From an uncultured Planctomycetota bacterium (lineage in GTDB: Bacteria; Planctomycetota; Brocadiia; CAIUPP01), in contig CAIUPP010000123.1 of assembly GCA_903901045.1 (NCBI GenBank), positions 62,001 through 126,000 on the forward strand: 64,000 bases of DNA, in the 5' to 3' direction. The translations under genes and the position numbers were made by a program. Under the pieces are notes generated by a model, which was not told the DNA's origin, made no database searches, and worked only from the letters and a program-made list of their open reading frames with translations. The number at the start of each line of letters is the position of its first letter. Within the stretch, counting starts at the first letter, position 1. Shown in pieces: positions 25,469-50,749 of the stretch.

Positions 25469-28402
25469 GTGGAGCCAATCTCACGACGCGCGTTTCTCGG
25501 GCTTGCCGCGAGCGCGGGGGTCGCCATCGCCACGTCGCCCCCCTCCAAGCTTGCCGACCGGCTCATTCCCTACGTCAACCCCCCGGAGTATCCCCCCTCG
25601 GGGCAGTGGGCCACCTACGCGACCACCTGCCGCGAATGCCCCGCCGGCTGCGGAATGCACCTCTGGCACCGGGACGGGCGCGTGACCAAGGCCGAGGGGA
25701 ACCCGGAGCATCCCGTCAACTGCGGCGGACTTTGCGCGCGCGGGCAGTCCTCCCTGCAAGGGCTTTACGACCCGGACCGCCTGCGGGCGCCCCAGCGCAG
25801 CGGGGGGGCATTGGCTTCATGGCCCGACGCCATCACCTCCATTGGCGACAAACTGCGCAACAGGCGAGGGCGCGTGGTGGTTCTCAGCGACCTCCAGACC
25901 GGCGCGCTGCGCGAGGTAGTCGAATCCTTCGCTGCCGCATTCGGCGGCGCGGCGCTCTTCTGGGAGCCGATCAACTGCGAGGCGCTCTGCGGCGCTCATG
26001 ACGCGCTCTTCGGCCTGCCGCAGATTCCCGCCTTTCGCATGGAGCAGTGCCGCCTCATCCTGACCTTCGGCGCGGATTTCCTGGACACCTGGATTTCCCC
26101 CGTGGAGTACGCCGCCGCCTTCAGCCGGATGCACGCCTTCCGCGAGGGGGGAATGGGGCGCATGGTCTATGTCGGGCCGCGCTTGTCCATGACAGCCGGC
26201 AACGCCGACGACTTTCTCTGCGTCCCCCCGGGCGGAGAACTGGCCATCGCCGTGGAAATGCTCCGCGCGATAGCGGAGAAGGGCCGGCCGAAAGGGGACG
26301 CGCGCACCCTGACCGCGCACCTCAAGGCGCTTTCTGCGCGCGCAGGCGGCTTGCCGGAAGGCGTGTCCCGCGCCAGGGTCGAATCGCTCGCCCGCGCCTT
26401 TGTTGAATCCCCATCGAGCGTGGCGCTGGCCGGGCCCGCAGGGGGGAGCGGTTCGGCGGCGCGGGACCTCGCGATGGCGGCGGCGCTGCTGAATTACGCC
26501 GCGGGCCGCATCGGCAGCAGCATGGACTTCGCCGCCCCGCACGCGCTCAGCCGGGCCGCAGGAAATCGCCAGGCGGAGGCGCTGCTGGAGGGGCTGACGC
26601 AGGAGGATATTCTGTTCCTCCTGGGGGCCAATCCCGTCTACGCCTTGAACGGCGCTGAAGCGGCGCTGCGGCGCGCGGGCGCGGTGGTCTGCCTGGGGAC
26701 TATGCCCGACGAGTCGGCGGCTCTGGCGCATTGGACGCTGCCGGTCGACAGCCCGCTGGAATCCTGGGGGGACTACGAGCCGCGCGCCGGAGTCCACGGC
26801 CTCATGCAACCCACTCTGTCTCGGCTGCACAACAGCCGTCCCGCGGGGGATTTGTTTCTTGAAGTTGCCCGCGCGGCGGGCAAGCCGTTGGCGCGTCCCG
26901 GCGGGGCCGGCGCGCCGGAGAATTTTGAGCAATGGCTGCACCTGTGCTGGCGCGAGCTTCACGCGCGGCTGTCGCCATTGACGCCCTTCGATCTCTTCTG
27001 GCACGACTCCCTTCGCCGTGGGGGAGCGTATGAGAAGCCGGCGGAGGTCTCCGTGCAACTGCGCCCGGTCGCCGACAGCATGGTGGAGCGCGCTGTCCCA
27101 GCGCGCTTGGTGAACGATAGCCGGCTGGGGACAGCCGGCTCCACCACGACGGATGCGGAACTATGGGTCTGGCCCTCGGTAATGCTCTTCGACGGTCGCG
27201 TGGCGAACCGGGGCTGGCTGCAGGAAGCGCCCGAACCGACGACCTCGATCACCTGGGGCAGTTGGGTGGAACTCCATCCCCGCAAAGCGCGCGCCCTCGG
27301 GCTGAGCGATGGCGATGTGGTGGAAATCTCCAACGAGCGCGCGGCGATCGAACTGCCCCTCCTCGTCACCGAGGACGTGGCGGAGAACGTGGCCGCCGTT
27401 CCCCTCGGCCAGGGACACACCGCCCTGGGCCGCAACGCCACCCGGCGCGGCGCCAACGCCTTCCGTCTGCTGGGCGGCGTCGAGGGCCCCACCGCCTTTG
27501 GCCCCGTGAAGCTTCGCCCCGCCGGCCGTAGCGCGCCGCCGACCTCCGTCGCCCCCACCCAGGATCAGTACAAACGCGAACTTCTCCAGTGGATGCCCCT
27601 CGCGCGACTGCGCGCGATGAATCCCGGCGACGGCAATCCGGTGGTCCTCCCCTTGCCCGAGGGATTCGACCCCCGGCGCGACCTTTATCAGGGGCGCAAG
27701 TACGATCAGCACCGCTGGGCGATGGTGGTGGACCTTCATCGCTGCACCGGCTGCGGCGCTTGCGGCGTCGCCTGTTATGCCGAGAACAACATCGCCGTGA
27801 TGGGGGAGGAGCAACTCCGCGTCGGCCGGGAACTCGCATGGCTCAAGGTCGTTCCCTATCGCAAAGAGGGCTCCCGCCGGCTCGGCTGGCTGCCCATGCT
27901 CTGCCAGCAATGCGAATGCGCTCCCTGCGAGCCGGTCTGCCCCGTCTTCGCCTCGGTGCATGACGGGGAGGGGCTGAACGCGCAGGTCTACAACCGCTGC
28001 ATCGGCACGCGCTACTGCTCCAACAACTGCCCGTACAAAGTGCGCCGGTTCAACTGGCGCAACAACGAATGGCCCTCGCCCCTGGAGCGGCAGCTCAACC
28101 CGGAAGTGACCGTTCGCTGCCGCGGCGTGATGGAAAAATGCACCTTCTGCATTCAGCGCATTCGCAACGCCGAGCATGTCGCGAAGCGCGCCCGGCGGCC
28201 CGTGAAGGATGGGGATATCCTGCCCGCCTGCGTTCAGAGTTGCCCCACGCGCGCGCTGCTCTTCGGCGACCTGCTCCTCTCTGATTCGGAGGTGAGCCGG
28301 CTCACCCACAACGACCCGCGCCGTTATCACGTGCTGGAAAGCCTCAACGCGAAGCCTGCGATCACCTACTTGATGCGGATAGAGCAAGATGAGCCAGTCT
28401 GA
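25469..28402 (+). CDS. actB: Alternative complex III subunit B (molybdopterin-type domain fused to Fe-S domain)
   Basis: This 977-residue protein is the extracytoplasmic core of a quinol:electron-acceptor oxidoreductase. A Tat signal (SRRAFLG, residues 5-11) is followed by a molybdopterin-oxidoreductase-like domain beginning with a CRECPAGC cluster, then from about residue 745 a ferredoxin-like domain with four cluster motifs (CTGCGACGVAC; CQQCECAPCEPVC; CIGTRYCSNNC with CTFC; CVQSC). This fused order is typical of ActB. Residues about 538-560 (VERAVPARLVNDSRLG...) are encoded by palindromic repeats inserted in frame. The start is GTG 25469, preceded by GGAGGAAAG. The gene overlaps actC by 14 bases. 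Confidence 0.92.
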   Translation: MEPISRRAFLGLAASAGVAIATSPPSKLADRLIPYVNPPEYPPSGQWATYATTCRECPAGCGMHLWHRDGRVTKAEGNPEHPVNCGGLCARGQSSLQGLYDPDRLRAPQRSGGALASWPDAITSIGDKLRNRRGRVVVLSDLQTGALREVVESFAAAFGGAALFWEPINCEALCGAHDALFGLPQIPAFRMEQCRLILTFGADFLDTWISPVEYAAAFSRMHAFREGGMGRMVYVGPRLSMTAGNADDFLCVPPGGELAIAVEMLRAIAEKGRPKGDARTLTAHLKALSARAGGLPEGVSRARVESLARAFVESPSSVALAGPAGGSGSAARDLAMAAALLNYAAGRIGSSMDFAAPHALSRAAGNRQAEALLEGLTQEDILFLLGANPVYALNGAEAALRRAGAVVCLGTMPDESAALAHWTLPVDSPLESWGDYEPRAGVHGLMQPTLSRLHNSRPAGDLFLEVARAAGKPLARPGGAGAPENFEQWLHLCWRELHARLSPLTPFDLFWHDSLRRGGAYEKPAEVSVQLRPVADSMVERAVPARLVNDSRLGTAGSTTTDAELWVWPSVMLFDGRVANRGWLQEAPEPTTSITWGSWVELHPRKARALGLSDGDVVEISNERAAIELPLLVTEDVAENVAAVPLGQGHTALGRNATRRGANAFRLLGGVEGPTAFGPVKLRPAGRSAPPTSVAPTQDQYKRELLQWMPLARLRAMNPGDGNPVVLPLPEGFDPRRDLYQGRKYDQHRWAMVVDLHRCTGCGACGVACYAENNIAVMGEEQLRVGRELAWLKVVPYRKEGSRRLGWLPMLCQQCECAPCEPVCPVFASVHDGEGLNAQVYNRCIGTRYCSNNCPYKVRRFNWRNNEWPSPLERQLNPEVTVRCRGVMEKCTFCIQRIRNAEHVAKRARRPVKDGDILPACVQSCPTRALLFGDLLLSDSEVSRLTHNDPRRYHVLESLNAKPAITYLMRIEQDEPV
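27081..27146. repeat. Composite palindromic insertion inside actB (family B plus related unit)
   Basis: A family B unit (27081-27109) is joined to a second palindrome (AGCCGGCTG-ggga-CAGCCGGCT, 27119-27141) so that the whole 66-bp block starts TGGTGGAGC and ends GCTCCACCA. Its length is a multiple of three and it is read through in frame as 22 extra residues. Confidence 0.88.
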
Positions 28403-34543: not shown

Positions 34544-34785
34544 TCGGGTTGAACGTCCTTCAGAACCAGTGGCTGATCCTGGCGCTCTTCGGCGGAAGCG
34601 CCACGGTGTTGGCCGTGTTCCTCTGCTACCTGGCCGGCTGGCGGCCGCGGCAGGGGACCGATCAGGCCGGCAACCGGTCGCCGGTCGCCTGGACCCCCTG
34701 GGGGCTCATCGTCGTCTACGCGCTCACCGTCGCTTTCGGCCTCGCGTTCGTGGTCATGGTCGCCCTCAATCCTCCGAACTGGTGA
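34540..34785 (+). CDS. Small two-helix membrane protein of the oxidase operon
   Basis: The 81-residue protein has two membrane helices (about 11-32 and 53-76) joined by a polar loop. It may be an accessory subunit of the oxidase or of alternative complex III; no family recognised. The ATG overlaps the ccoS stop. Confidence 0.6.
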   Translation: MIGLNVLQNQWLILALFGGSATVLAVFLCYLAGWRPRQGTDQAGNRSPVAWTPWGLIVVYALTVAFGLAFVVMVALNPPNW

Positions 34786-40287: not shown

Positions 40288-42207
40288 TCAGCCCGTGCGC
40301 GTGCGCAGGACGCGCGAATCTCCCTGCCGGATCGTCACCCCTTCGCGGTCGAGCGTTTCAAGCAGGGGGAGCAGGTACTTCCGGGAGGCCCCCAGCAGAT
40401 CCCGCGCCTGCGCGATGTTCATGCTCCCATTTCGGGCGATGAACTCCACCACCTTGCTCCGGCTTTGGTCGAAGACGCCGGGCAGGATGCAGATATCCTC
40501 CGCCAGCCGCCGGATCATCCCCGCCTCCGTCATCGCCTCAAGCACTCGCTTCTGCTCGGAGGAATTCAGAGCGGCCGCGGCCGCAATCTCCAGCGGCGGG
40601 GGGGCCGAGAGTCCGGACTGCGCGAGGCTCGAAAGTATTTTGTCCCGCGCCTGCGCATAGCGCCCCACCCACTGCGGCGAGTGGCCCGCCAGCGCCAGCT
40701 TCTCGCCTGAGGCGACGACCTTCTTCTGCTCCTGCAGGAGCGCCAGCGCGATGCGGAAACATTCCCGCGTCTCCGGCGACGGCGAGCTCGCCGCCGCCAC
40801 GGCATTGAGCGGAGCGAACGGCCTCAGCGGTTCCTGCGCGTGCAGCTTCGCCATGCAGGAGACGATGGCGGACTGCATCTCCTGCACCGCGCCGCTCCCG
40901 AACCAGAAGTCCTGCCGCCCGGCGCGCGCCTCCCCCTCGGCCTGGAACTGCTCAAGCACCCCGCGCAATTCCGTCTCCAGAACGCCGCAGAGCACCTGGA
41001 GCTTGTCCAGCCGAACCCCGCGCGCGCCCGCCTTGTCGAGGGTCTCCGCGACCGTCTCGGCCAGCGCCGAACTCTCGCGCTTCGCCACCTCCTCCGCCCC
41101 CGCGCGCTTCTGCCGTTTGGGGGGGTGCGCGTCCACAATCGCGCCCCCGCCGATGACGAACATCGGCGAGTACGACCGCATGACGAACGGATCGCCCGCC
41201 ACCGCCACCAGCGCGCTTTCCAGTCGCAACTGCACCAGCGCGGATTCCCCCGGCGGAAGGCTCTCCGTCTCCAGCAGCACCACGCGCGCCATCACCTCCC
41301 GGGTCTGGTGGTGAATCCGGACGCGCGTTCGCTGCCCCAGCGCGCGCGGCGCACGCGACGAAAGGTACAGCCGCGCATCCATCATCAGGCTGGGAGCCAG
41401 CGCGCCCGGCGTGGCCAGCACGTCCCCGCGCTCCAGATCCTCCTTCGACGCGTCGGCGAGGTTCACCGCCGCGCGCTGCCCGGCGAACACCTGCTCGACC
41501 GTCTCGTTGTGCACCTGGAGATTGCGCACACGAAGGTCGAGGCCCTTCGGCAGCGCGACGACGTTCTCTCCCGTCTTCAGGCTGCCCGAAATCACCGTCC
41601 CGGTGATCACCGTCCCCGCTCCCTTGAGGGAGAAAACGCGGTCGATGGGAAGCCGGAAGATTCCCGCCGCGCTGCGCGTGCGCACGCGGGCGGCGATCCG
41701 CGCAAGCTCCTCCTGAAGCGCGGGCAACCCCTCGCGCGTGACGGAGGAGACCGGGAGCACGCGCGCCTCTTCGAGGAACGTCCCCCGGGTGAGCGTCCGG
41801 ACCTCTTCGGTGACTTCGGCGATCCGCTCGGCGGCGGCCTTGTCGCTCTTCGTGAGCGCCACAACGCCGGTGGAAATCCCCAGCGCGCGCACCACTTCGA
41901 GATGCTCCACCGTCTGCGGCATCACCCCTTCGTCCGCCGCGACGACGAAGATCACCGCGTCGATCCCCGTCACCCCCGCCACCATGTTCCGCACGAACAT
42001 TTCGTGCCCCGGCACATCCACGATGGCGGCGGAATGTTTCAGCCCCGGCAGCGGGAGGAAGGCGAAGCCCAGGTCGATCGTCATCTCCCGGGCTTTCTCT
42101 TCGGCCAGGCGGTCGGGATCGGTGCCGGTCAGCGCCAGCACCAGCGAGGACTTGCCGTGGTCCACGTGCCCCGCCGTGCCGAAAATGACGTGCCGTTCCA
42201 CGCTCAT
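40288..42207 (-). CDS. selB: Selenocysteine-specific elongation factor SelB
   Basis: This 639-residue GTPase delivers Sec-tRNA to UGA codons that carry a SECIS element. The G1 motif GTAGHVDHGKSSL opens the protein, then DVPGHE (G3) and TKSD (G4). EF-Tu-like domains II and III follow, and from about residue 380 the C-terminal winged-helix repeats bind SECIS RNA (for example QSRSKVVEFIARNGSMNIAQARDLL). It overlaps selA by four bases and is cotranscribed with it. Confidence 0.95.
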   Translation of the reverse strand: MSVERHVIFGTAGHVDHGKSSLVLALTGTDPDRLAEEKAREMTIDLGFAFLPLPGLKHSAAIVDVPGHEMFVRNMVAGVTGIDAVIFVVAADEGVMPQTVEHLEVVRALGISTGVVALTKSDKAAAERIAEVTEEVRTLTRGTFLEEARVLPVSSVTREGLPALQEELARIAARVRTRSAAGIFRLPIDRVFSLKGAGTVITGTVISGSLKTGENVVALPKGLDLRVRNLQVHNETVEQVFAGQRAAVNLADASKEDLERGDVLATPGALAPSLMMDARLYLSSRAPRALGQRTRVRIHHQTREVMARVVLLETESLPPGESALVQLRLESALVAVAGDPFVMRSYSPMFVIGGGAIVDAHPPKRQKRAGAEEVAKRESSALAETVAETLDKAGARGVRLDKLQVLCGVLETELRGVLEQFQAEGEARAGRQDFWFGSGAVQEMQSAIVSCMAKLHAQEPLRPFAPLNAVAAASSPSPETRECFRIALALLQEQKKVVASGEKLALAGHSPQWVGRYAQARDKILSSLAQSGLSAPPPLEIAAAAALNSSEQKRVLEAMTEAGMIRRLAEDICILPGVFDQSRSKVVEFIARNGSMNIAQARDLLGASRKYLLPLLETLDREGVTIRQGDSRVLRTRTG

Positions 42208-43619
42208 GACGGGCCGCGCTGGAGGGAGTCGCCCACGCCTTGAAGCGCGGCCAGGATCAGCGGCTCCTCGCCCGGCAGGATCGTGCGCGGGTCCATCAGG
42301 ACGCCCTGCTCATGCACCCGCGCGAAGACCGGCGGGTCGCTCAGGCGCAGCCGCTTGGAGAGTTCCGCCGCGGCGATTCGCTCAGAGCGCAGGCGGACGC
42401 AGACCGTCGGAAGCGAATGCCCCGCGAACGACCCACCGCCGATCTCCGAGCGTTCCTCAATCGTATCCGCGTCGAGCCAGCCGGAACACCCCTCGCGGAC
42501 CAGTCGCGCCAGCTCTTCGGCGCGCCGCTGAATCTCCTTCACCGGCATGGCCAGCAGCGCCGTCACCCGATGTTCCTGCGGCAGGCGCTCCGCATCCAGG
42601 AACAGCCGCAGCGTCCCTTCGAGGGCGGAGAGCGTCAGCTTGCAAACCCGGAAAGCGCGGTAGAAGGGGTTCTTCCGCATCGCCTGGAGCGTATCGGTCT
42701 TGCCGAGAATGATGCCGCATTGCGGCCCGCCCAGGAGTTTGTCCCCGCTGAAGAGCGCGGCATCGACCCCGGCCGCGAGGCTCTCCGGCACGTTCGGCTC
42801 GTATGGAAGACCGTATCGCCGGTAATCCAGCAGCGCGCCGCTGCCCAGGTCGTGCACGCAGGCCACTCCCTTGCTGCGCGCCAGCTTCGCCAGTTCCGCC
42901 ACCGGCGGCTGCGACGCGAACCCCTCGATGCGGTAATTGCTCTGGTGCACCGCCAGGATCAGCGCCGTGGCGGGCGTGATCGCCTTCTCATAGTCGGCTA
43001 GGTGCGTGCGGTTCGTGCAGCCCACCTCGACCAGTTGGCAACCCGCGAGTTTCAGTATCTCCGGGATGCGGAACGAGCCGCCGATCTCCACCATCTCCCC
43101 GCGCGACAGGATCACCTCGCGTCCGGACGCCAGGGTATTCAGCACCAGCACCGTGGCCGCCGCGTTGTTGTTCACCACCAGCGCCGCCTCCGCCCCGGTG
43201 ATGCGCTGCAGCAGCCCCAGCACGTGGATCTCGCGGGGGGTGCGTTCGCCGGAATCGAGGCCGGCCTGGACGTTGCAGTAACCGGCCGCCGCCTCGGCCA
43301 GCGCCTCCTGCGCCGCCGCCGAAAGGGGGGCGCGCCCGAGGTTCGTGTGAAGCGCCACCCCCGTCGCGTTCACCGCCCGGCGCAGGCTCCGCGCCGACTT
43401 GCGCCGGTAAAGCTCCATCGCGCGCGCCGCGACGGCCTCCAGTGATGCCCCGGCGGAATCTTCTCCCGCCAGCAGGCGTTGCCGCGCCTCTTCGATGGCC
43501 TCTCTCGCGGCCTCGCGCGCCAGCGGACGATGCGCCTCCGCCAGCGCGGCCATCCTGCCCTGCGCCATCAGGTCGTCAACCCGCGGCAACCGGCGCAGCA
43601 GAGGCACCTTCTCTTCCAT
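42204..43619 (-). CDS. selA: L-seryl-tRNA(Sec) selenium transferase
   Basis: The 471-residue PLP enzyme converts Ser-tRNA(Sec) to Sec-tRNA(Sec) using selenophosphate. It starts MEEKVPLLRRLPRVDDLM, typical of SelA; the PLP lysine is in FSGDKLLGGPQ (about 294). INATGV-type (VNATGVALHTNLGRAPLS) and VVNNNAAA motifs are present. I chose the ATG at 43619, with GGAG six bases upstream; the open frame continues upstream through an interspersed repeat. Its ATGA stop overlap with selB is conserved in many sel operons. Confidence 0.95.
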   Translation of the reverse strand: MEEKVPLLRRLPRVDDLMAQGRMAALAEAHRPLAREAAREAIEEARQRLLAGEDSAGASLEAVAARAMELYRRKSARSLRRAVNATGVALHTNLGRAPLSAAAQEALAEAAAGYCNVQAGLDSGERTPREIHVLGLLQRITGAEAALVVNNNAAATVLVLNTLASGREVILSRGEMVEIGGSFRIPEILKLAGCQLVEVGCTNRTHLADYEKAITPATALILAVHQSNYRIEGFASQPPVAELAKLARSKGVACVHDLGSGALLDYRRYGLPYEPNVPESLAAGVDAALFSGDKLLGGPQCGIILGKTDTLQAMRKNPFYRAFRVCKLTLSALEGTLRLFLDAERLPQEHRVTALLAMPVKEIQRRAEELARLVREGCSGWLDADTIEERSEIGGGSFAGHSLPTVCVRLRSERIAAAELSKRLRLSDPPVFARVHEQGVLMDPRTILPGEEPLILAALQGVGDSLQRGPS

Positions 43620-43763: not shown

Positions 43764-43892
43764 TCAGGAGAAGCAGAAATTCTGCGCGTTCTTCAGCACG
43801 TAACCGGCGTCGCCATAGCGCAGCCCGATGACGAGCATCGCCGCAAAAAGCGCCGCCAGCGCGCCCGCAATGATCCACGCTTTCTTATTCAT
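43749..43892 (-). CDS. CD1871A-like small membrane peptide, probable selenoprotein with CxxU motif
   Basis: The ATG at 43892 opens a peptide with one membrane helix (AWIIAGALAALFAAMLVIGL) followed by RYGDAGYVLKNAQNFCFS, then TGA (43766-43764), then ThrLeuGlyGln and a second TGA (43751-43749). From memory, CD1871A-family peptides have the same length and end VLxKAxNICLECIGIG; aligned with that, the in-frame TGA falls on the second Cys of CxxC. Read as Sec, the protein is 47 residues and ends CFSU-TLGQ. A SECIS-like hairpin lies at the right distance, and selA-selB follow directly. If the TGA is a stop, the peptide is 42 residues. It overlaps the preceding 4Fe-4S membrane protein gene by eight bases, the usual partner of this family. 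Confidence 0.72.
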
Positions 43893-44796
43893 CTTTCTCC
43901 GCCCTCCGCTCACTGACACTGACCGCCCGGCCGGCGAGCGTTGCGGAAAGCGCTCCCTCCTCCAGGCAGTTCCGAACGCAGTCCAGGCATAACACGCACT
44001 CCGCCGTCGCTTCCTTCCGCTTCTCGCCGACCGGCACGTGGCGGCACTCCGTCGGACAGACCTTGACGCACCGCATGCAGCGCGTGCACTTCTCCTGGTC
44101 CGTCCTCAGGCGCAGGAGCGAAATTCCCGACGTGAGCGCCATCAGCGCCCCCAGCGGGCAGAGCGCCCGGCAGAAACTCCTGCGCGCGATCACCGCCAGC
44201 CCCAGCACGAGCACCATCAGGCCGATCTTCGACCAGGTGCGATAAGAAGCGTGCGCGCGTCCTTCCGCATCAGTCGCCAGGTACGGCAGGCTCCCTTCGA
44301 GCGTTCCCGCCGGGCAGACCAGCGAGCAGTAATCCAGCGCGCCGGTCTGCTCGCCCGTGATGCGCGCGTTCGGCGTCGTGCCCTTGGCGCTCCCGAAAAT
44401 CAGCGGCAGCGCCAGCACCAGCACAACCAGCAGCGCGTACTTCAGCGCGTTGAACGCCTTCGGCATGCGCCATTTCCACGTGCGAATCCGGTACAGCATA
44501 TCCTGCAGCCAGCCGAACGGGCAGGCCCAGCCGCAGAAGGCGCGCCCCACGGCCACTCCGAGGAGTCCGAGCAGCCCGATGATATAGAACGGAATGCGCC
44601 GCACCAGCGCGAAGGCCGTCAAGCTGCCGATGGGGCAGGCCACCGTCCCCACCGGGCACGAGTAGCAGTTCAGCACCGGGATGCACAGCGCCTTGCCGCC
44701 GGGGCTCAGGAAGTAGCTGTTGAAGGCCGCGAGCGAGAGCAACTGGACCGGCATCCGCCGGCCCGTCCTCCCCGTTTCACTCCTGGATTGGCTCAT
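43885..44796 (-). CDS. Membrane-bound 4Fe-4S ferredoxin-type protein (YccM/NapH-like)
   Basis: The 303-residue protein has about five helices and several cysteine clusters: CYSCPVGTVACPIG near the start, FCGWACPFGWLQD, a third CSLVCPAG, CRALCPLGA, and two classical ferredoxin motifs (CTRCMRCVKVCPTEC and CVLCLDCVRNC). It probably moves electrons across or along the membrane. Its ATG overlaps the methyltransferase gene upstream by 20 bases, and the CD1871A-like peptide follows with an eight-base overlap, which suggests a joint redox function. Confidence 0.85.
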   Translation of the reverse strand: MSQSRSETGRTGRRMPVQLLSLAAFNSYFLSPGGKALCIPVLNCYSCPVGTVACPIGSLTAFALVRRIPFYIIGLLGLLGVAVGRAFCGWACPFGWLQDMLYRIRTWKWRMPKAFNALKYALLVVLVLALPLIFGSAKGTTPNARITGEQTGALDYCSLVCPAGTLEGSLPYLATDAEGRAHASYRTWSKIGLMVLVLGLAVIARRSFCRALCPLGALMALTSGISLLRLRTDQEKCTRCMRCVKVCPTECRHVPVGEKRKEATAECVLCLDCVRNCLEEGALSATLAGRAVSVSERRAEKDE

Positions 44797-45820
44797 CCTC
44801 ACCTCGAACGGCCTGTGTCATGGCGCGCAGATGTTCCGGCGGCGTCGACGGCACCAGCCCGCAGGCCGGCGAGACGATCTGGAACTCCCGCGCCGCTCGG
44901 CGCGCCGAGCGCTGTATGGCCGAAACCGGCCCGCGTTGCAGAAGGATCGCATCCACATTTCCGATGCGGACCACGCCGGGCAGCTCCTCGCGCAGCATCC
45001 GCCCGCTGACCATCGCATCCACGCTCAGCGCCAGCCCGCCGCCGAGGCCGTCGTTCAACTGCCGCAGCGGTTCCAGCACAGGGCGCACATCGCCACATAT
45101 ATGCAGTATATGCGGCGCGCCCCCCTCGCGCAAGGAGCGAAGAAGGCGCGTGAGCGCCGGCGCCGCGAAGCGCGCAAAATGCGCCGCGCCCAGGATCTCC
45201 CCGGTCGCCGAGGGCTCCGCAACCATGACGGCATCTGCCCCCGCGGCGCGTTGCGCCAGCGCGAATTGCAGAACGAACTCCTCCGTGCGCGCCAGCAGCC
45301 GGTCGACCGTTTGCGGTTCCCGCCGCGCCAGGCGGAAGAATATCCCCGCCTCCATAATCGTCGCCGCCAGCGTCACCGGCCCGACCAGCGCCCCGATCAC
45401 CGGGTTGGAGCCGGGGGCGGCCTTCAAGCGCCGCAGCGCCTCCAGGACCGTTCTAACCCTTGGCATCTTTTCCGGATTGAACTGCGGCAGGCCCTCGATG
45501 TCGGCGGCGCCCGCGACACTCTCGGCGAGCACGCAGGGAAGCACCTCGGGCGTGCCCAGCTCCACGCGGCAACCGAGCGCTTCGGCCTCGACCGTCATGC
45601 AGAAGGGGGCGGCGAGGCACTCGAAGCCCGACTCCTCCCGCGTCGCGAGAATCAGGTCGGCCATGGCCGCGGCCTCCGAATGCGCCCGGGGCCACCCGCA
45701 GCCCGTGCGCGCCATGGCGGAGGTGGTCGCCAGCGTCATCATCCCGCCGGGGCAGATCACCGGAGGAGGCTGGACGGCCTCGCCGGCCAGGGCGCTGAGG
45801 AATCGTTCTCGTGAGTTCAT
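44777..45820 (-). CDS. MtaA/uroporphyrinogen decarboxylase-family methyltransferase (second copy)
   Basis: The 347-residue protein has the URO-D fold of corrinoid-dependent methyltransferases. The zinc ligands His and Cys are in LHICGDVRP, and the third Cys is in VSPACGLVPSTP; these are absent from true HemE. It is likely to transfer a methyl group between a methyl donor or acceptor and the corrinoid protein encoded upstream. The start is ATG 45820; the open frame extends through repeats upstream but without homology. Confidence 0.85.
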   Translation of the reverse strand: MNSRERFLSALAGEAVQPPPVICPGGMMTLATTSAMARTGCGWPRAHSEAAAMADLILATREESGFECLAAPFCMTVEAEALGCRVELGTPEVLPCVLAESVAGAADIEGLPQFNPEKMPRVRTVLEALRRLKAAPGSNPVIGALVGPVTLAATIMEAGIFFRLARREPQTVDRLLARTEEFVLQFALAQRAAGADAVMVAEPSATGEILGAAHFARFAAPALTRLLRSLREGGAPHILHICGDVRPVLEPLRQLNDGLGGGLALSVDAMVSGRMLREELPGVVRIGNVDAILLQRGPVSAIQRSARRAAREFQIVSPACGLVPSTPPEHLRAMTQAVRGEDEPIQE

Positions 45821-46070
45821 GGGTTTCCTGCGCGTTGCGGCAGATGCGCGAATGACGAATGACGAAGCCCGAATGACGAAGGAAACGCCAATGACGAAAT
45901 GCCCGCGCGCCCCTTTCTTGAGGAAAAGGGGGTCAGGCAACTTTTCCAGCAGCGGAAAAGTAGCCAGACCCCTTTTCCCGCCCCTTTTCCCCCTGGGGCG
46001 TCGCAGGAGAGCCACGCTTTTCGAGCTGGGGGTTTTGGACATTCCTTCGTCATTCGGGCTTCGGCATTCG
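45821..46070. repeat. Repeat island between the two methyltransferase genes
   Basis: The gap is almost entirely repeats: family G units in opposite orientation at its ends (45849-45898; 46038-46075) enclose the family C hairpin (45922-45978, arms GGGGTCAGGCAACTTTTCC and GGAAAAGTAGCCAGACCCC). The methyltransferase stop at 46071 lies at the edge of the right family G unit. Confidence 0.85.
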
Positions 46071-47108
46071 TCATTTCATCTGCCCATATTCCTGCACCGC
46101 GCTCATCATGGCGTCGATGTTCCGGCTGGCCGTCGCGATGGGCACCTCGCAGCCGCTTCCCAGAATGAACCCCCGCGCGCAGCCGCGCCCGATATCGCAC
46201 AGCGTGCGGACCTCGCGCGTCACATCCTCGGCGTTTCCCTTCAGCAGCGTCTGAGTCGGGCGCACGTTCCCCATCAGCCCGATGCGCCCCCCGACGCGGT
46301 CGCGAGCCTCCGCCATGGAAATATCATCCAGGCTCAGCAGGTTCGCGTTCGTCCCCACCATCGCGTCCAGAATGCGGCTCGTCTGCCCGCAGATGTGAAG
46401 CACCGCGGGGCATCCCCGGCGGCTGATGGCGCCGTGCAACTCCTTCAGGCAGGGTTGAGCGAACTCCTCGAACATGCGCAGGCTCAGCACGCTCCCCGTG
46501 GCCACGGGGTCCACCACGACGGGGATTCCCCCCGCGTCCAGAATGTCGTTCGCGAAATCGCAGGCCGTGGCGGTGGAAAGCTTCAGAAGCTTCAGCGCGA
46601 GGACGCGGTTGCGGATGAGGTCGCGCGCGAACTGGTCCGTCCCCCGCAGGCAGGCCGCCGTGGTGAAGGGGGCCGGCACGCAGCAGGAGACCGGCACCTC
46701 CGAGCCCACGGCCGCGACGGCGACCCGCACCGCCTCGATGAACAGCGGCAGCCGCCCCAGCGTGTGCGCCTGCGTGGTGACGAGCCGGCTCAGGTCGCCG
46801 GGAATCGACACGGCGGGGCGCTCCACCAGCGGCACGTCATCCTCTTGAAAATCCAGCCCCGTCCCCATCGCCTCGGCGAGGATCGCGGTATCCGAGAAGA
46901 TGGCGATCAGATCGTGCCCGTACCGTCGCCACGCGTCGGCATGGCACTGCCCCATCAGCCGGCCATCGCGGTTGTACGCGCCGACCTTCACGCCGTTCAC
47001 CCGCGCGGCGTGGTTCAGAATGAGCGGCACGCAGAGAAAACGGTCCATCGGCTTCCCGGTCAGAAAAGCCGTGAACCGCTCCTTGGGGGTCATTGTGTCC
47101 TGGCGCAT
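46071..47108 (-). CDS. MtaA/uroporphyrinogen decarboxylase-family methyltransferase (first copy)
   Basis: The 345-residue protein is related to methylcobamide methyltransferases. Zinc ligands are in LHICGQTSR, with a further Cys in FILGSGCEVP. MTPKERFTAFLTGKPMDRF at the start is typical of the MtaA/CmuA group. It overlaps the corrinoid protein gene by 19 bases and is surely cotranslated with it. The methyl substrate cannot be told from sequence. Confidence 0.87.
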   Translation of the reverse strand: MRQDTMTPKERFTAFLTGKPMDRFLCVPLILNHAARVNGVKVGAYNRDGRLMGQCHADAWRRYGHDLIAIFSDTAILAEAMGTGLDFQEDDVPLVERPAVSIPGDLSRLVTTQAHTLGRLPLFIEAVRVAVAAVGSEVPVSCCVPAPFTTAACLRGTDQFARDLIRNRVLALKLLKLSTATACDFANDILDAGGIPVVVDPVATGSVLSLRMFEEFAQPCLKELHGAISRRGCPAVLHICGQTSRILDAMVGTNANLLSLDDISMAEARDRVGGRIGLMGNVRPTQTLLKGNAEDVTREVRTLCDIGRGCARGFILGSGCEVPIATASRNIDAMMSAVQEYGQMK

Positions 47109-47749
47109 GGCAGGCTCCTTGAAAGTCGGTCGGCCAGTTCGACGGCCTCCTTCGCGTTGCGCCCGAATCCGTCCGCATCGATCTCCGCGGCGAAGCGCGC
47201 GCTCGCGGACGCGCCCCCGATCATCACCCGGAAGTCCCCCCGCAGCCCTGCTTCCTTCAACCCGCGCACCACCCGCGCCATGTTCTCCAGCGTGGTGGAC
47301 ATGAGGCTCGACAGCCCGATAATTCCCCCTCCCGCCGCGCGCGCGGCCTCGACGAACCGCTCCGCCGTCACGTTGCGCCCGAGGTCGATCACCTCATACC
47401 CCGCGGCATCCAGCAGAATCTTGACGATGTTCTTCCCGATGTCATGGATATCCCCCTCGATGACCCCGAGGATCACCTTGACCGGTTTGCGCGTGGCGTC
47501 CGCCTTGATGTGCGGCTTCAGAACGGCGATGGCCGCGTTCATGGCGTCCGAGCAGATGAGGATCTCCGGCACGAAATACTCGCCGCTGTCGTAGAGTTCC
47601 CCCACCTTGCGCATCCCGGCGGAGAGTCCCTCCGTGATGGCCAAGTATGGGTCGAGCCCTTCTGCGACGACTCGGTTCGCCGCCGCCACCGCGCGCTCCT
47701 CATCCATGGCGACCACGGCGTTCGCCAGCTCTTTGTGAAGTGGATTCAT
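47090..47749 (-). CDS. Corrinoid (B12-binding) methyl-carrier protein
   Basis: The 219-residue protein has the N-terminal helical cap of methionine-synthase-type corrinoid proteins (about 1-85) and a cobalamin-binding Rossmann domain with EGDIHDIGKNIV (the His that ligates cobalt, about 100), LSSLM and MIGGAS. It shuttles methyl groups between the methyltransferases encoded downstream. I chose ATG 47749; an upstream ATG lies in a family A palindrome. Confidence 0.92.
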   Translation of the reverse strand: MNPLHKELANAVVAMDEERAVAAANRVVAEGLDPYLAITEGLSAGMRKVGELYDSGEYFVPEILICSDAMNAAIAVLKPHIKADATRKPVKVILGVIEGDIHDIGKNIVKILLDAAGYEVIDLGRNVTAERFVEAARAAGGGIIGLSSLMSTTLENMARVVRGLKEAGLRGDFRVMIGGASASARFAAEIDADGFGRNAKEAVELADRLSRSLPCARTQ

Positions 47750-47943
47750 AGGGGGTCCCAGCCGTTCTGTGAGAGGAAATGCGTCGAATCGTGCGCGCCT
47801 CGACCGTCCGCAGGGGCAAGGCATGCCTTGCCCCTACAACATCCTGGGCTTGCTGCGTCAGAACTCATGCGAATCGAATACGCCAGGAAGTTGGTGGAGC
47901 GCGCTGTCCCCAGCGCGCTTTGGAAATACGCCGCGCGGGAGAA
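47750..47943. repeat. Repeat-filled gap between the corrinoid gene and tRNA-Sec
   Basis: A family A palindrome (47813-47834) and a family B unit (47892-47921) lie here; the latter ends 22 bases from the 3' end of the tRNA gene. No coding frame is seen. Confidence 0.8.
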
Positions 47944-48041: not shown

Positions 48042-48224
48042 ATAACAGGGTTGATTGCGCGGAATCCGTAAGCAGGGGCGCGGCATACTGCACCCGCAGA
48101 ACGCCTTCCGATTTCCGCGTCGCAGAGCAATCGCTCCCCGTTCGCCGTCCGGAAACCAGACGGGCGCCGGAAGTGCACTCCTTCCGGCGCCCGAAAATTG
48201 CAGCGGCTCTATACAAAACAGCCC
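48042..48224. other. Spacer before tRNA-Sec with a strong hairpin
   Basis: No gene is seen apart from the hairpin at 48161-48193. The upstream side of the tRNA has no clear promoter, so the tRNA may be processed from a longer transcript. Confidence 0.4.
48161..48193 (-). terminator. Stem-loop after the exported-protein gene
   Basis: A perfect 13-bp stem (CGGGCGCCGGAAG paired with CTTCCGGCGCCCG) has a seven-base loop. It lies 32 bases past the distal stop of the exported protein. No T-run follows on either strand, so termination may need other factors or be partial, letting transcription reach tRNA-Sec. Confidence 0.55.
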
Positions 48225-49011
48225 TCAGCGCATGACGGCCGTCGTTTGACCTTTCACGATCCCCAGCGGGCCCGCGTCGATGGTCGCTTCGCACGTCACC
48301 TTGCCTTTGATCGCCACTCCAACGGAGTAGCAGGGGTTGCCCCCTCATGAGAAGCCGAAGGAACTGATCGGTTTCGCTACGTTCGCGATTTCCTTCCCGG
48401 CGCTGTCGGTCGTCCTCATCTGGAGGTTCACCTCCACGCCGTTCTTCTGCACACCCGTCAAATCCGCAGTGCCGGCCTTGAGATGCACCCCCACGCCCAG
48501 CGTGCGCGCGCTGTCCTTGGTCAAATCCTTCGTGGCCACTTCCAGCGTCAGCTTGTCCATCGCCGGGACATCCAGGACCACATCCTTCTTCTGCGCCTGC
48601 ATCCCGGCCAGAGTGGTCAGGTAGGTCCAGGGTATCTTCTCTTTATCCAGCCGAGTCACCTTCAGCATGGCGAGCACATAGGACTGGCCCTGCGCTTGGG
48701 GATAGATCATCACCTGCGCCTTCATCCCCGTGCAGCCGGTCGGAAGCATGTCGGCGGGAATCGGCAACGGCGTTTCCGCGAAGCGCGGGGGGGGGGGCGC
48801 CCTGCGACTTCAGCGCCGTCGCCGTAGCCACCCCTTCCAGCGTCGAGGCCATGCGCAACTCATTGCCATTGGCCTGAGCGAAAATCGTCACCTTGTCGGA
48901 TATTTTGAACTGGAAATTGATCACGCTCGGTGCGGCTGTAGCCCCTGAAACCCACGCACCAGCCACCACCGTTACGGCAGCCAACCATCGCCAAGTGCCT
49001 TTGTGCAGCAT
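48225..49011 (-). CDS. Exported protein of unknown family, frameshifted in a G tract, with in-frame TGA proposed as selenocysteine
   Basis: ATG 49011 (AAGGAG eight bases upstream) starts a signal peptide (WLAAVTVVAGAWVSGATAA) and a beta-rich exported protein. At 48787-48797 an 11-G tract (C on the coding strand) shifts the frame; with 10 or 13 bases the frame continues as PPPPRFAETPLPIPADML. This second frame reaches TGA 48347-48345 after ISSFGFS, and then continues as GGNPCYSVGVAIKGKV to TGA 48227-48225. Codons after the TGA keep G/C third positions. If read as Sec, U222 is followed by Cys 227 and Cys 240 in a 261-residue protein. A SECIS-like stem-loop follows the TGA. It lies between selD and tRNA-Sec on the same strand. 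Alternatively it is a decaying gene. Confidence 0.6.
48314..48344 (-). promoter_or_regulatory. Putative SECIS stem-loop of the exported protein gene
   Basis: On the minus strand, 14 nt after the TGA (48347-48345), a 7-bp stem CTACTCC/GGAGTGG (one T-G pair) holds the loop GTT, which starts 21 nt after the TGA. A smaller GGGG-GCAA-CCCC hairpin lies between. The loop sequence and distance are the same as in the element at 43732-43763. Confidence 0.55.
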
Positions 49012-49177: not shown

Positions 49178-50749
49178 CTACGCCGGCCCCTTCTCCTGCC
49201 AGAACATCATCGCCTTGCAGCCGCCGAAAGCGACCCCCATCCACGCCGCCTCGCGGACGCGCTCGGGCGCGATACCCAGGTTCCGGCATTTCTCCAGATG
49301 AATGCGCAGGCAGGGCTCGCACTGCACCGCCACCGAAAGCGCCACGATCATCAATTCCTTCTGAACGGCATCCAGCGTGCCCGGCGCGGTCACCGCCGCC
49401 ATGAACTGCTTGAACGCCTCCGGCGCGCCCGGCGCGGCGGGGGAGGCCGCCTGCGAACAACTCTCCGCCCCCGGCGCGCTCTCGACGCCGGAATGCGCGG
49501 CGCAGCAGGGCGACTGCTTGGCAGAAACTCTCGCCGGGGAATCCGTCTTCTTTCGGGTCACCACGATCTTCCCTTTCGATTTCTCGACCACCCGTCCGAT
49601 CACAGCCGCGTCGCGGCAGCCCGCGGCCCGCAACTGAGAGACCATCTCCGCAGCCTTCGCCTCCGGGAGCGCAATCAACAGCCCGCCCGAAGTCTGGGCA
49701 TCGTAAAGAATGTCCAGCGCGTGCTCAGGCAGCCCCTTCGCCGCCTCCACAAACGCGCCGGCGAACTCCCGGTTGCGTTCCGCCGCGCCGGAGCCGATCC
49801 CCTGCGCCGCGTACTCCGCAACCCCTGGCAGCAGCGGCATCGCTTCCCACCACACCTCCGCCGTCACCCCGCTCTCGCGCACCACGTGCCGCAGGTGGCC
49901 CAGCAGCCCAAACCCGGTGACGTCCGTGCACGCGTGCGCCCCCATCCGGACCATCACTTCGGAGGCGCTTTTGTTGAGCGTCGACATGGACAGCGCGGCG
50001 GCCCGCGCCGACTCCGCCGAGGCGCGGCCCATCTGCGCGGCGAATGAGATAATCCCCGTTCCGAGCGGCTTGCTCAGAATCAGCGCGTCCCCCGGCTGCG
50101 CCCCCGCGTTCGTCACAATCGCGTCCGGCCTCACCACCCCCGTCACCGCGAAGCCGAACTTGATCTCCTCCTCATTGATACTGTGCCCGCCCACCAGCAG
50201 CACCCCCGCCTCGTTCAGCTTGTCCAGTCCCCCCTTGAGCATCTGGTACATCGCCTCGTCGCCGAGGGTGTGGATCGGATAGCCGATAATGGAAAGGGCC
50301 GTCAGCGCCGCGCCCCCCATGGCATAGACGTCGCTCAGCGAATTGCACGCGGCGATCTGGCCGAACTGGTACGGATCATCCACGCAGGGGGCGAACACAT
50401 CCACCGTCTGTACCAGGCAGAGGTCGGGCGAAATCTGGAAGACCCCGGCATCATCCGCCGTCGCCAGCCCGACCAGCAGCCGCGGATCGCTGGCGGCGGG
50501 CAACCGCGAGAGGATCCGCGCCAGGTCCGCCGCGGGAATCTTCGACGCGCACCCCGCGTTCTTCATGCGCTTCATCAACCCCGGCTTCTCCGCCGAGAGC
50601 GGCTCCTCAAGCCGTTCCCCCGCGCAAAGGCAGACATCGCGCTGGAGGAAAATGTCGCACGGGCAATTCTTGCGCGGGTCGCAGATGCAGTGCCCCAGCG
50701 CCTTCGACCGGGCCATCACGCGCGCGCGTTTGGATGATGCTTCGGACAT
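49178..50749 (-). CDS. selD: Selenophosphate synthetase fused to an AhpD/CMD-like domain and a Cys-rich N-terminus
   Basis: The protein makes selenophosphate from selenide and ATP, the selenium donor for SelA. The SelD core (about 55-400) has the catalytic Cys and Lys in AGCASKIP, ATADDAGVF and VDVFAPCVDDPYQFGQI for metal and ATP binding. Before it is a cluster of CxC motifs (CICDPRKNCPCD, CLC; about 21-42). After it, from about 435 to the end (523), a carboxymuconolactone decarboxylase/AhpD-like domain has the CEPCLRIH redox pair. This three-part architecture may couple thiol chemistry to selenide delivery. AAGGA precedes the ATG. Confidence 0.9.
   Translation of the reverse strand: MSEASSKRARVMARSKALGHCICDPRKNCPCDIFLQRDVCLCAGERLEEPLSAEKPGLMKRMKNAGCASKIPAADLARILSRLPAASDPRLLVGLATADDAGVFQISPDLCLVQTVDVFAPCVDDPYQFGQIAACNSLSDVYAMGGAALTALSIIGYPIHTLGDEAMYQMLKGGLDKLNEAGVLLVGGHSINEEEIKFGFAVTGVVRPDAIVTNAGAQPGDALILSKPLGTGIISFAAQMGRASAESARAAALSMSTLNKSASEVMVRMGAHACTDVTGFGLLGHLRHVVRESGVTAEVWWEAMPLLPGVAEYAAQGIGSGAAERNREFAGAFVEAAKGLPEHALDILYDAQTSGGLLIALPEAKAAEMVSQLRAAGCRDAAVIGRVVEKSKGKIVVTRKKTDSPARVSAKQSPCCAAHSGVESAPGAESCSQAASPAAPGAPEAFKQFMAAVTAPGTLDAVQKELMIVALSVAVQCEPCLRIHLEKCRNLGIAPERVREAAWMGVAFGGCKAMMFWQEKGPA

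Follow-up and report, generated by a model that had tools for sequence, protein, structure and literature searches.

A putative exported selenoprotein family of the Planctomycetota, encoded beside the selenocysteine machinery

Does an in-frame TGA in a gene lying between selD and the gene for tRNA-Sec encode selenocysteine (Sec), or does it simply end the protein? The question is raised by a locus in a 64-kb stretch of DNA, referred to here as the window, that was analysed together with genomes from across the phylum. The gene (48225..49011, minus strand), delimited from its sequence and its homologs, is predicted to comprise a signal peptide, a beta-rich N-terminal part and a C-terminal Sec domain. 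It is flanked on the same strand, as originally described, by selD (50749 to 49178), which a domain search found to be fused to a C-terminal CMD/AhpD-like domain, and by the tRNA-Sec gene, selC (48041 to 47944; Rfam tRNA-Sec, 69 bits). Downstream, also on the minus strand, lie selA (42240..43598, the extent of the TIGR00474 match; G000:C123:104240-105598, E 2.2e-157) and selB (40303..42189, the extent of the TIGR00475 match; G000:C123:102303-104189, E 4.3e-106, over cut-off), and a search of the window and three further loci at the Rfam gathering threshold returned tRNA-Sec only.

The original prediction placed the gene from 49011 to 48225 and read it through the TGA; its coordinates, strand and features all hold. 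The TGA (48345..48347, minus strand) sits in the motif FGFS-U-GGNPC, and beyond it the frame stays open for 39 sense codons before a TGA stop, with cysteines five and 18 residues on and a coding-like composition (third-position G/C of 0.80), just as had been inferred from the DNA alone. The same measure is 0.84 over the 146 codons upstream of the TGA; the other two frames give 0.56 and 0.54. The signal peptide (MLHKGTWRWLAAVTVVAGAWVSGATAA; 48931..49011, minus strand) was recognised by eye, without a signal-peptide program, and export of the product is an inference from it.

Homologs that end at FGFS would have refuted the prediction, but the two closest relatives, both found in genome G012 by a first search of 98 genomes, carry one in-frame TGA each and keep the C-terminal tail, aligning as FGFS-U-GGAPCYSVRVA...IDAGPLG and FGFS-U-SGPSC-SVRVA...VDAGPLG. 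One of these copies lies directly before tRNA-Sec, selA and selB. A scan of the genome contigs with an early three-row alignment, run with Cys patterns, returned the two G012 loci only, and a profile search then reached a remoter branch in G020, where two tandem copies with FEYG-U-GGTCRYSWRVP are divergent from selA. The final profile was applied to Planctomycetota genomes only. Phylum-wide (392 genomes, E<=1e-5) the domain was detected in 34 genomes. Of its 58 matches, 54 contain a single TGA and no further stop, and four contain no stop at all. Within the class of G342 (347 genomes, E<=1e-3) it occurs in 49 genomes with 155 matches, up to 13 per genome; among the 150 matches listed, 139 contain a single TGA without any TAA or TAG, and 11 are free of stops. 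The window's own class is sparser: four of 75 genomes hold the domain, all four have selA, and seven of the eight matches carry the TGA. G001, the sole other genome of the window's taxonomic family, has neither selA nor a family gene.

At the loci examined, overlapping loci included, TGA occupies the Sec column in 100 of 116 profile matches, and the 70 distinct TGA sites among these, a non-random sample, were used for the comparisons below. The window TGA falls in the same column as the others; that column is invariant in alignments that by construction hold TGA copies. A cysteine follows the Sec position by four residues at 63 of the 70 sites, by five at three (the window included) and by six at two, and the remaining two have none within eight residues. 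Weak TGA-less matches at L026, L027, L029, L030 and L031 were excluded as members, as was the match at L028.

The window copy is a member of a small divergent branch, and in the present assembly (154 contigs, 94% complete) its reading frame breaks at an 11-base run of C (48787..48797, minus strand). This is the longest homopolymer of the window, the next longest being 8. In two-sequence comparisons the sequence on either side of the run matches the same intact G012 protein (E 1e-5 for the N-terminal part, 4e-25 for what follows the run), so the two parts form a single gene whose frame is interrupted. As the cause of the break we favour an error of sequencing or assembly, or a tract prone to slippage, over decay. 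It remains possible, albeit unlikely, that the family is real and the window copy a pseudogene in which a true frameshift has become fixed: the frame does break, and the assembly is fragmented and incomplete to the degree given above, but beyond it the reading frame stays open and looks like coding sequence, with TGA, hairpin and tail all intact, the adjacent sel genes are intact, and the run is the only homopolymer above 8 in 64 kb, a usual sign of slippage. A long tract of C near the start of a gene for an exported protein is also the classic layout of phase variation, and the tract could act as a slippage switch that turns the exported protein on and off. The layout fits and runs of 8 or 9 occur in three of the other 69 genes, but with a run of at least 8 in only four of 70 genes the tract is not a family trait, and sequencing error explains it equally well; we regard a switch as improbable, no less so than a fixed frameshift.

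There is much less room for the view that the TGA is an ordinary stop, with the downstream frame decayed or open by chance. Such a view could appeal to the break at the C run and to the relatives that lack a TGA (11 of the 150 matches listed, and four of 58 phylum-wide), yet the sequence after the TGA is conserved as a tail, and the great majority of matches (139 of 150 and 54 of 58) have the one TGA and neither TAA nor TAG. Furthermore, dN is lower than dS after the TGA in all 28 pairs that could be formed from eight copies in three genomes of one genus, paralogs included (ratios of about 0.12 to 0.74), which bears out the selection that the original prediction entailed. With the covarying hairpin and the linkage to selA described below, an ordinary stop becomes very hard to sustain. 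In G716, G494 and G426 (copies L079, L081 and L082), which belong to one genus and all lack selA, the Sec column is occupied by cysteine; in the remaining copies without a TGA the residue is Gly, Thr, Ala, Tyr or Phe. Of two such cases at L074/L075, one is a tandem domain of G472 that has Thr in this position and the other is a G693 copy that has Gly but otherwise retains GGTCAYSW.

A SECIS-like stem-loop after the TGA had been proposed, and stem search, covariation and folding support one at 48312..48332 (minus strand): a 9-bp stem (UGCUACUCC/GGAGUGGCG) that includes one G-U pair, with the loop GUU at 48323-48321, 21 nt from the TGA. A 48-nt piece containing it folds at -22.2 kcal/mol (z -3.18), and the hairpin goes beyond chance, because relatives keep both it and the TGA. 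The loop of the best stem lies 20 or 21 nt past the TGA at 65 of the 70 sites, and the commonest apical loop is UGG (48 of 70). In the alignment of the 70 sites all eight of eight pairs change on both sides with pairing kept, and the 40 compensatory cells observed compare with a mean of 7.6 in shuffled alignments, none of 500 shuffles reaching that number, and with at most 16 in slid versions of the alignment. Against a null that preserves the encoded peptide, drawing synonymous codons for the given amino-acid sequences, 6.99 of 8 pairs were seen and 5.13 expected; this null is conservative, since codon usage was pooled from these same segments. Where the peptide departs from YSWRV, as at L022 and L025, a hairpin is retained with other letters. 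In the second G012 copy (L004) the hairpin is kept with its register shifted, and at L070, L072, L037 and one L086 copy the best stem is not the standard hairpin.

The accessible part of a 2026 review gives a bSECIS model with the apical loop 16-37 nt from the UGA, a G in the first two loop positions and an energy limit of MFE <= -7.5 kcal/mol (PMC13188914), limits within which the window hairpin falls. A held-out covariance model was built from 64 of the 70 sites, without the window, the two sites of G012 and the divergent L020, L022 and L037. It did not recover the window or G012 hairpins at E<=10; the supposed, untested reason is that the model is dominated by YSWRVP-type sites and the window branch is divergent. 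The only match of this model across the window genome (E 0.07) falls in no family gene and was rejected as probably spurious.

The family also follows the Sec machinery across genomes. Among the 347 genomes, selA is present in 39 of the 43 with TGA copies and in 85 of the 304 others (Fisher p 1.5e-15, uncorrected for phylogeny), and in 25 of the 41 genomes that have both the family and selA, a family member and selA share a contig at a distance of no more than 20 kb. The four genomes with TGA copies and no selA match (G567, G639, G684 and G731) are 83-88% complete, and G684 has a selB over the cut-off nonetheless. G731, a single contig, has neither selA nor a selB over the cut-off, which is unexplained; its TGA copy (L064, G731:C1:1573080-1573421) has a perfect 7-bp hairpin. 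Meanwhile, the 70 genes end in TGA (34), TAG (23), TAA (12) or off the contig edge (1), so TGA continues to serve as a stop in these genomes. Reassignment of TGA to an ordinary amino acid, for which in-frame TGAs in many genomes might be cited, is scarcely conceivable given one TGA per match in one column of the aligned matches, the use of TGA as terminator by 34 of those 70 genes, and a TGA that tracks selA.

The selenoprotein reading of the original prediction is thus supported by the TGA homologs, the kept tail, dN below dS, and cysteine where selA is absent. The TGA at 48347-48345 very probably encodes selenocysteine, and from comparison of sequences we consider it nearly certain that the gene encodes a true selenoprotein belonging to a new, Planctomycetota-wide family, although direct evidence from expression, mass spectrometry or selenium measurement is lacking.

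The prediction had further called this a candidate second selenoprotein, and here it was not upheld: no first one was found, nor any other convincing in-frame TGA in the window. A screen for in-frame TGAs with at least 80 codons upstream and at least 30 downstream passed 11 candidates, the present gene included; nine others look antisense or non-coding by composition, and the candidate at 34783 looks like two ordinary adjacent genes. No formate dehydrogenase (TIGR01591) was found over the cut-off in the window genome. A weak match to the N-terminal part of the formate dehydrogenase alpha subunit was noted at 25622-25861, inside a stop-free open frame of 987 aa that is probably a molybdopterin oxidoreductase.

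Sequence searches relate the family to little that is known. Of a full-length set of 35 members, 32 were used; the set was chosen by a hydrophobic N-terminus and is therefore silent on the fraction exported. Pfam gave no family at E<=1 for the window segments, and for the 32 full-length members only a weak GEVED match in two and a weak MG2 match in one. None of the 32 matched NCBIfam release 20.0 at E<=0.01, five domains searched at E<=1 gave one unrelated weak match only, and no PDB sequence matched the full-length profile at E<=0.1. AlphaFold modelled a full-length relative with a pLDDT of 89.9 and a pTM of 0.83, and the window segment only middlingly (pLDDT 69.6). The full-length model is mostly beta, or all-beta besides short helices and the signal helix, and its neighbours are Ig-like, albeit by prediction only. 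Its last (Sec) domain has Ig-like and macroglobulin-type matches (Z up to 7.7), the model of the window segment has Ig/FnIII matches (Z up to 9.7), and the Sec domain is accordingly modelled as an Ig-like beta-sandwich. Z values of this size indicate a common arrangement, not kinship or function. Superoxide reductase (4bfk; Z 8.9, rmsd 3.2, 96 aligned) and the TT0351 protein (1v8h; Z 8.9, rmsd 3.0, 89 aligned) are structural neighbours of the Sec domain, but they tie with many unrelated Ig/FnIII folds, and sharing a fold shows no function. A Foldseek search with the full-length model gave three matches at E<=0.001 with TM-scores near 0.1, which were uninformative.

Selenoproteins decoded by a bSECIS, such as the formate dehydrogenase alpha subunit, likewise combine a UGA and a 3' hairpin within the coding region with selA, selB, selC and selD. 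The criteria for membership in that system are met here in a conserved in-frame UGA with conserved sequence on both sides, a hairpin within the published limits and the presence of all four sel genes in the window genome; that of Cys homologs is met too, albeit by three clear cases only. No sequence relation to formate dehydrogenase alpha or other bSECIS selenoproteins was found with NCBIfam for the 32 members, and the redox pair differs, being usually U-x3-C in the family as against UxxC or CxxU. As far as the prediction goes the fold differs as well, most characterised selenoproteins being thioredoxin-like according to the review (PMC13188914). The portion of its list available includes a selenoprotein with a DUF1573 domain (PF07610) and the motif UGC (PMC13188914). 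Like the present family this is a predicted bacterial selenoprotein of unclear function, but PF07610 is matched by none of the 32 members and its UGC contrasts with the family's UGGTC. The DUF1573 domain may be Ig-like as well. Hypothetical protein DG (NF049953, GUxG) occurs in Desulfosediminicola and has Cys homologs, as far as the available text of its report goes (PMC12013277). Its GUxG motif also fits the YG-U-GG of the family, but neither the 32 full-length members nor the five domains have an NCBIfam match to it.

Comparison shows that UGA, downstream sequence and 3' hairpin are conserved together, in a gene that in the window belongs to a selD-selC-selA-selB locus. By extension from what is known of Sec in bacteria, the hairpin would be a bSECIS bound by SelB in complex with Sec-tRNA(Sec), and the ribosome would as a result insert Sec at the UGA without stopping. 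The Sec and its partner cysteine, usually four residues on and five in the window, would then probably cycle between a selenenylsulfide and a selenol/thiol pair, which is likewise inferred. What the protein does is a more tentative matter: the likeliest role, though one that falls short of being probable, is that of an extracytoplasmic thiol/selenol redox or detoxification protein, perhaps with reduction via a nearby 4Fe-4S membrane protein. Such a protein, which we take to be of the NapH/CcoG type, is encoded in the window at 43885..44802 (minus strand; Fer4_5 and other domain matches), and as a candidate electron donor that might reduce the exported Sec protein it forms the weakest step of the inference.

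Neighbourhoods were compared between 26 family-positive loci and 12 selA-positive, family-negative loci; loci were chosen by the presence of the family and selA, so only other genes are informative. Relatives of the 4Fe-4S membrane protein occur at nine of the 26 (window included) and none of the 12, and SelD homologs at 17 of the 26 and two of the 12, those two being plain, without an N-terminal extension. Two further genes, whose names are our assumption with no family search behind them, are a presumed SAM-methyltransferase-like protein (nine of 26 against none of 12) and a presumed HgdB/BcrC-like protein (eight of 26 against none of 12). These recur together near selA in other genomes, the former with a CCC(S/T)GAG motif, at L085, L094, L096, L099, L100, L104, L109 and L112, and they possibly represent a selenium-linked reductive pathway.

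The family appears to be undescribed, new as far as can be seen. The review counts 119 prokaryotic selenoprotein families, and its table, so far as accessible, has none with a matching motif and scaffold (PMC13188914). No report of the family was found in the literature, a search that left out most subscription papers, preprints and supplementary tables (e.g. S9 Table, PMC4807772). The authors of deep-Sep state, in the available part of their paper, that selenoproteins without Cys homologs may escape their method (PMC12013277), a blind spot that a family with rare Cys versions fits. Current search methods depend largely on homologs with Cys and standard gene calling ends at TGA, and if the present reading is true, a discovery method for which such homologs are a requirement would have overlooked the family. 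To the roughly 119 known families would be added one that is large and apparently unlisted, with a predicted scaffold that differs from the usual thioredoxin fold and a peptide motif, YSWRV, that is at once an RNA hairpin. It is conceivable, if somewhat doubtful, that these are exported Ig-like selenoproteins on the scale of a phylum in which Sec is near-obligatory, perhaps forming an extracytoplasmic selenol system that an adjacent 4Fe-4S membrane protein supplies with electrons, or a selenium or metal carrier. The family could then be the main reason for keeping selenocysteine in many Planctomycetota, and it provides a gene set with which to ask why they retain this costly system.

Some minor features of the locus may be recorded. 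Between selC and selA the window encodes, on the same strand as these, a corrinoid protein and two URO-D-type methyltransferases (44777-47824), an insert absent from the G012 locus, where selA directly follows selC. The window SelD (49178-50749) has a Cys-rich N-terminal extension (CxCDPxxxCPCxxF...CLCAGER) and a Cys, not Sec, in what we presume to be the active-site loop; SelD genes that resemble it are found at many other family-positive Sec loci. A very strong 13-bp hairpin (48161-48193; -36.0 kcal/mol for a 75-nt piece) lies between the selenoprotein gene and tRNA-Sec and is perhaps a terminator or processing site.
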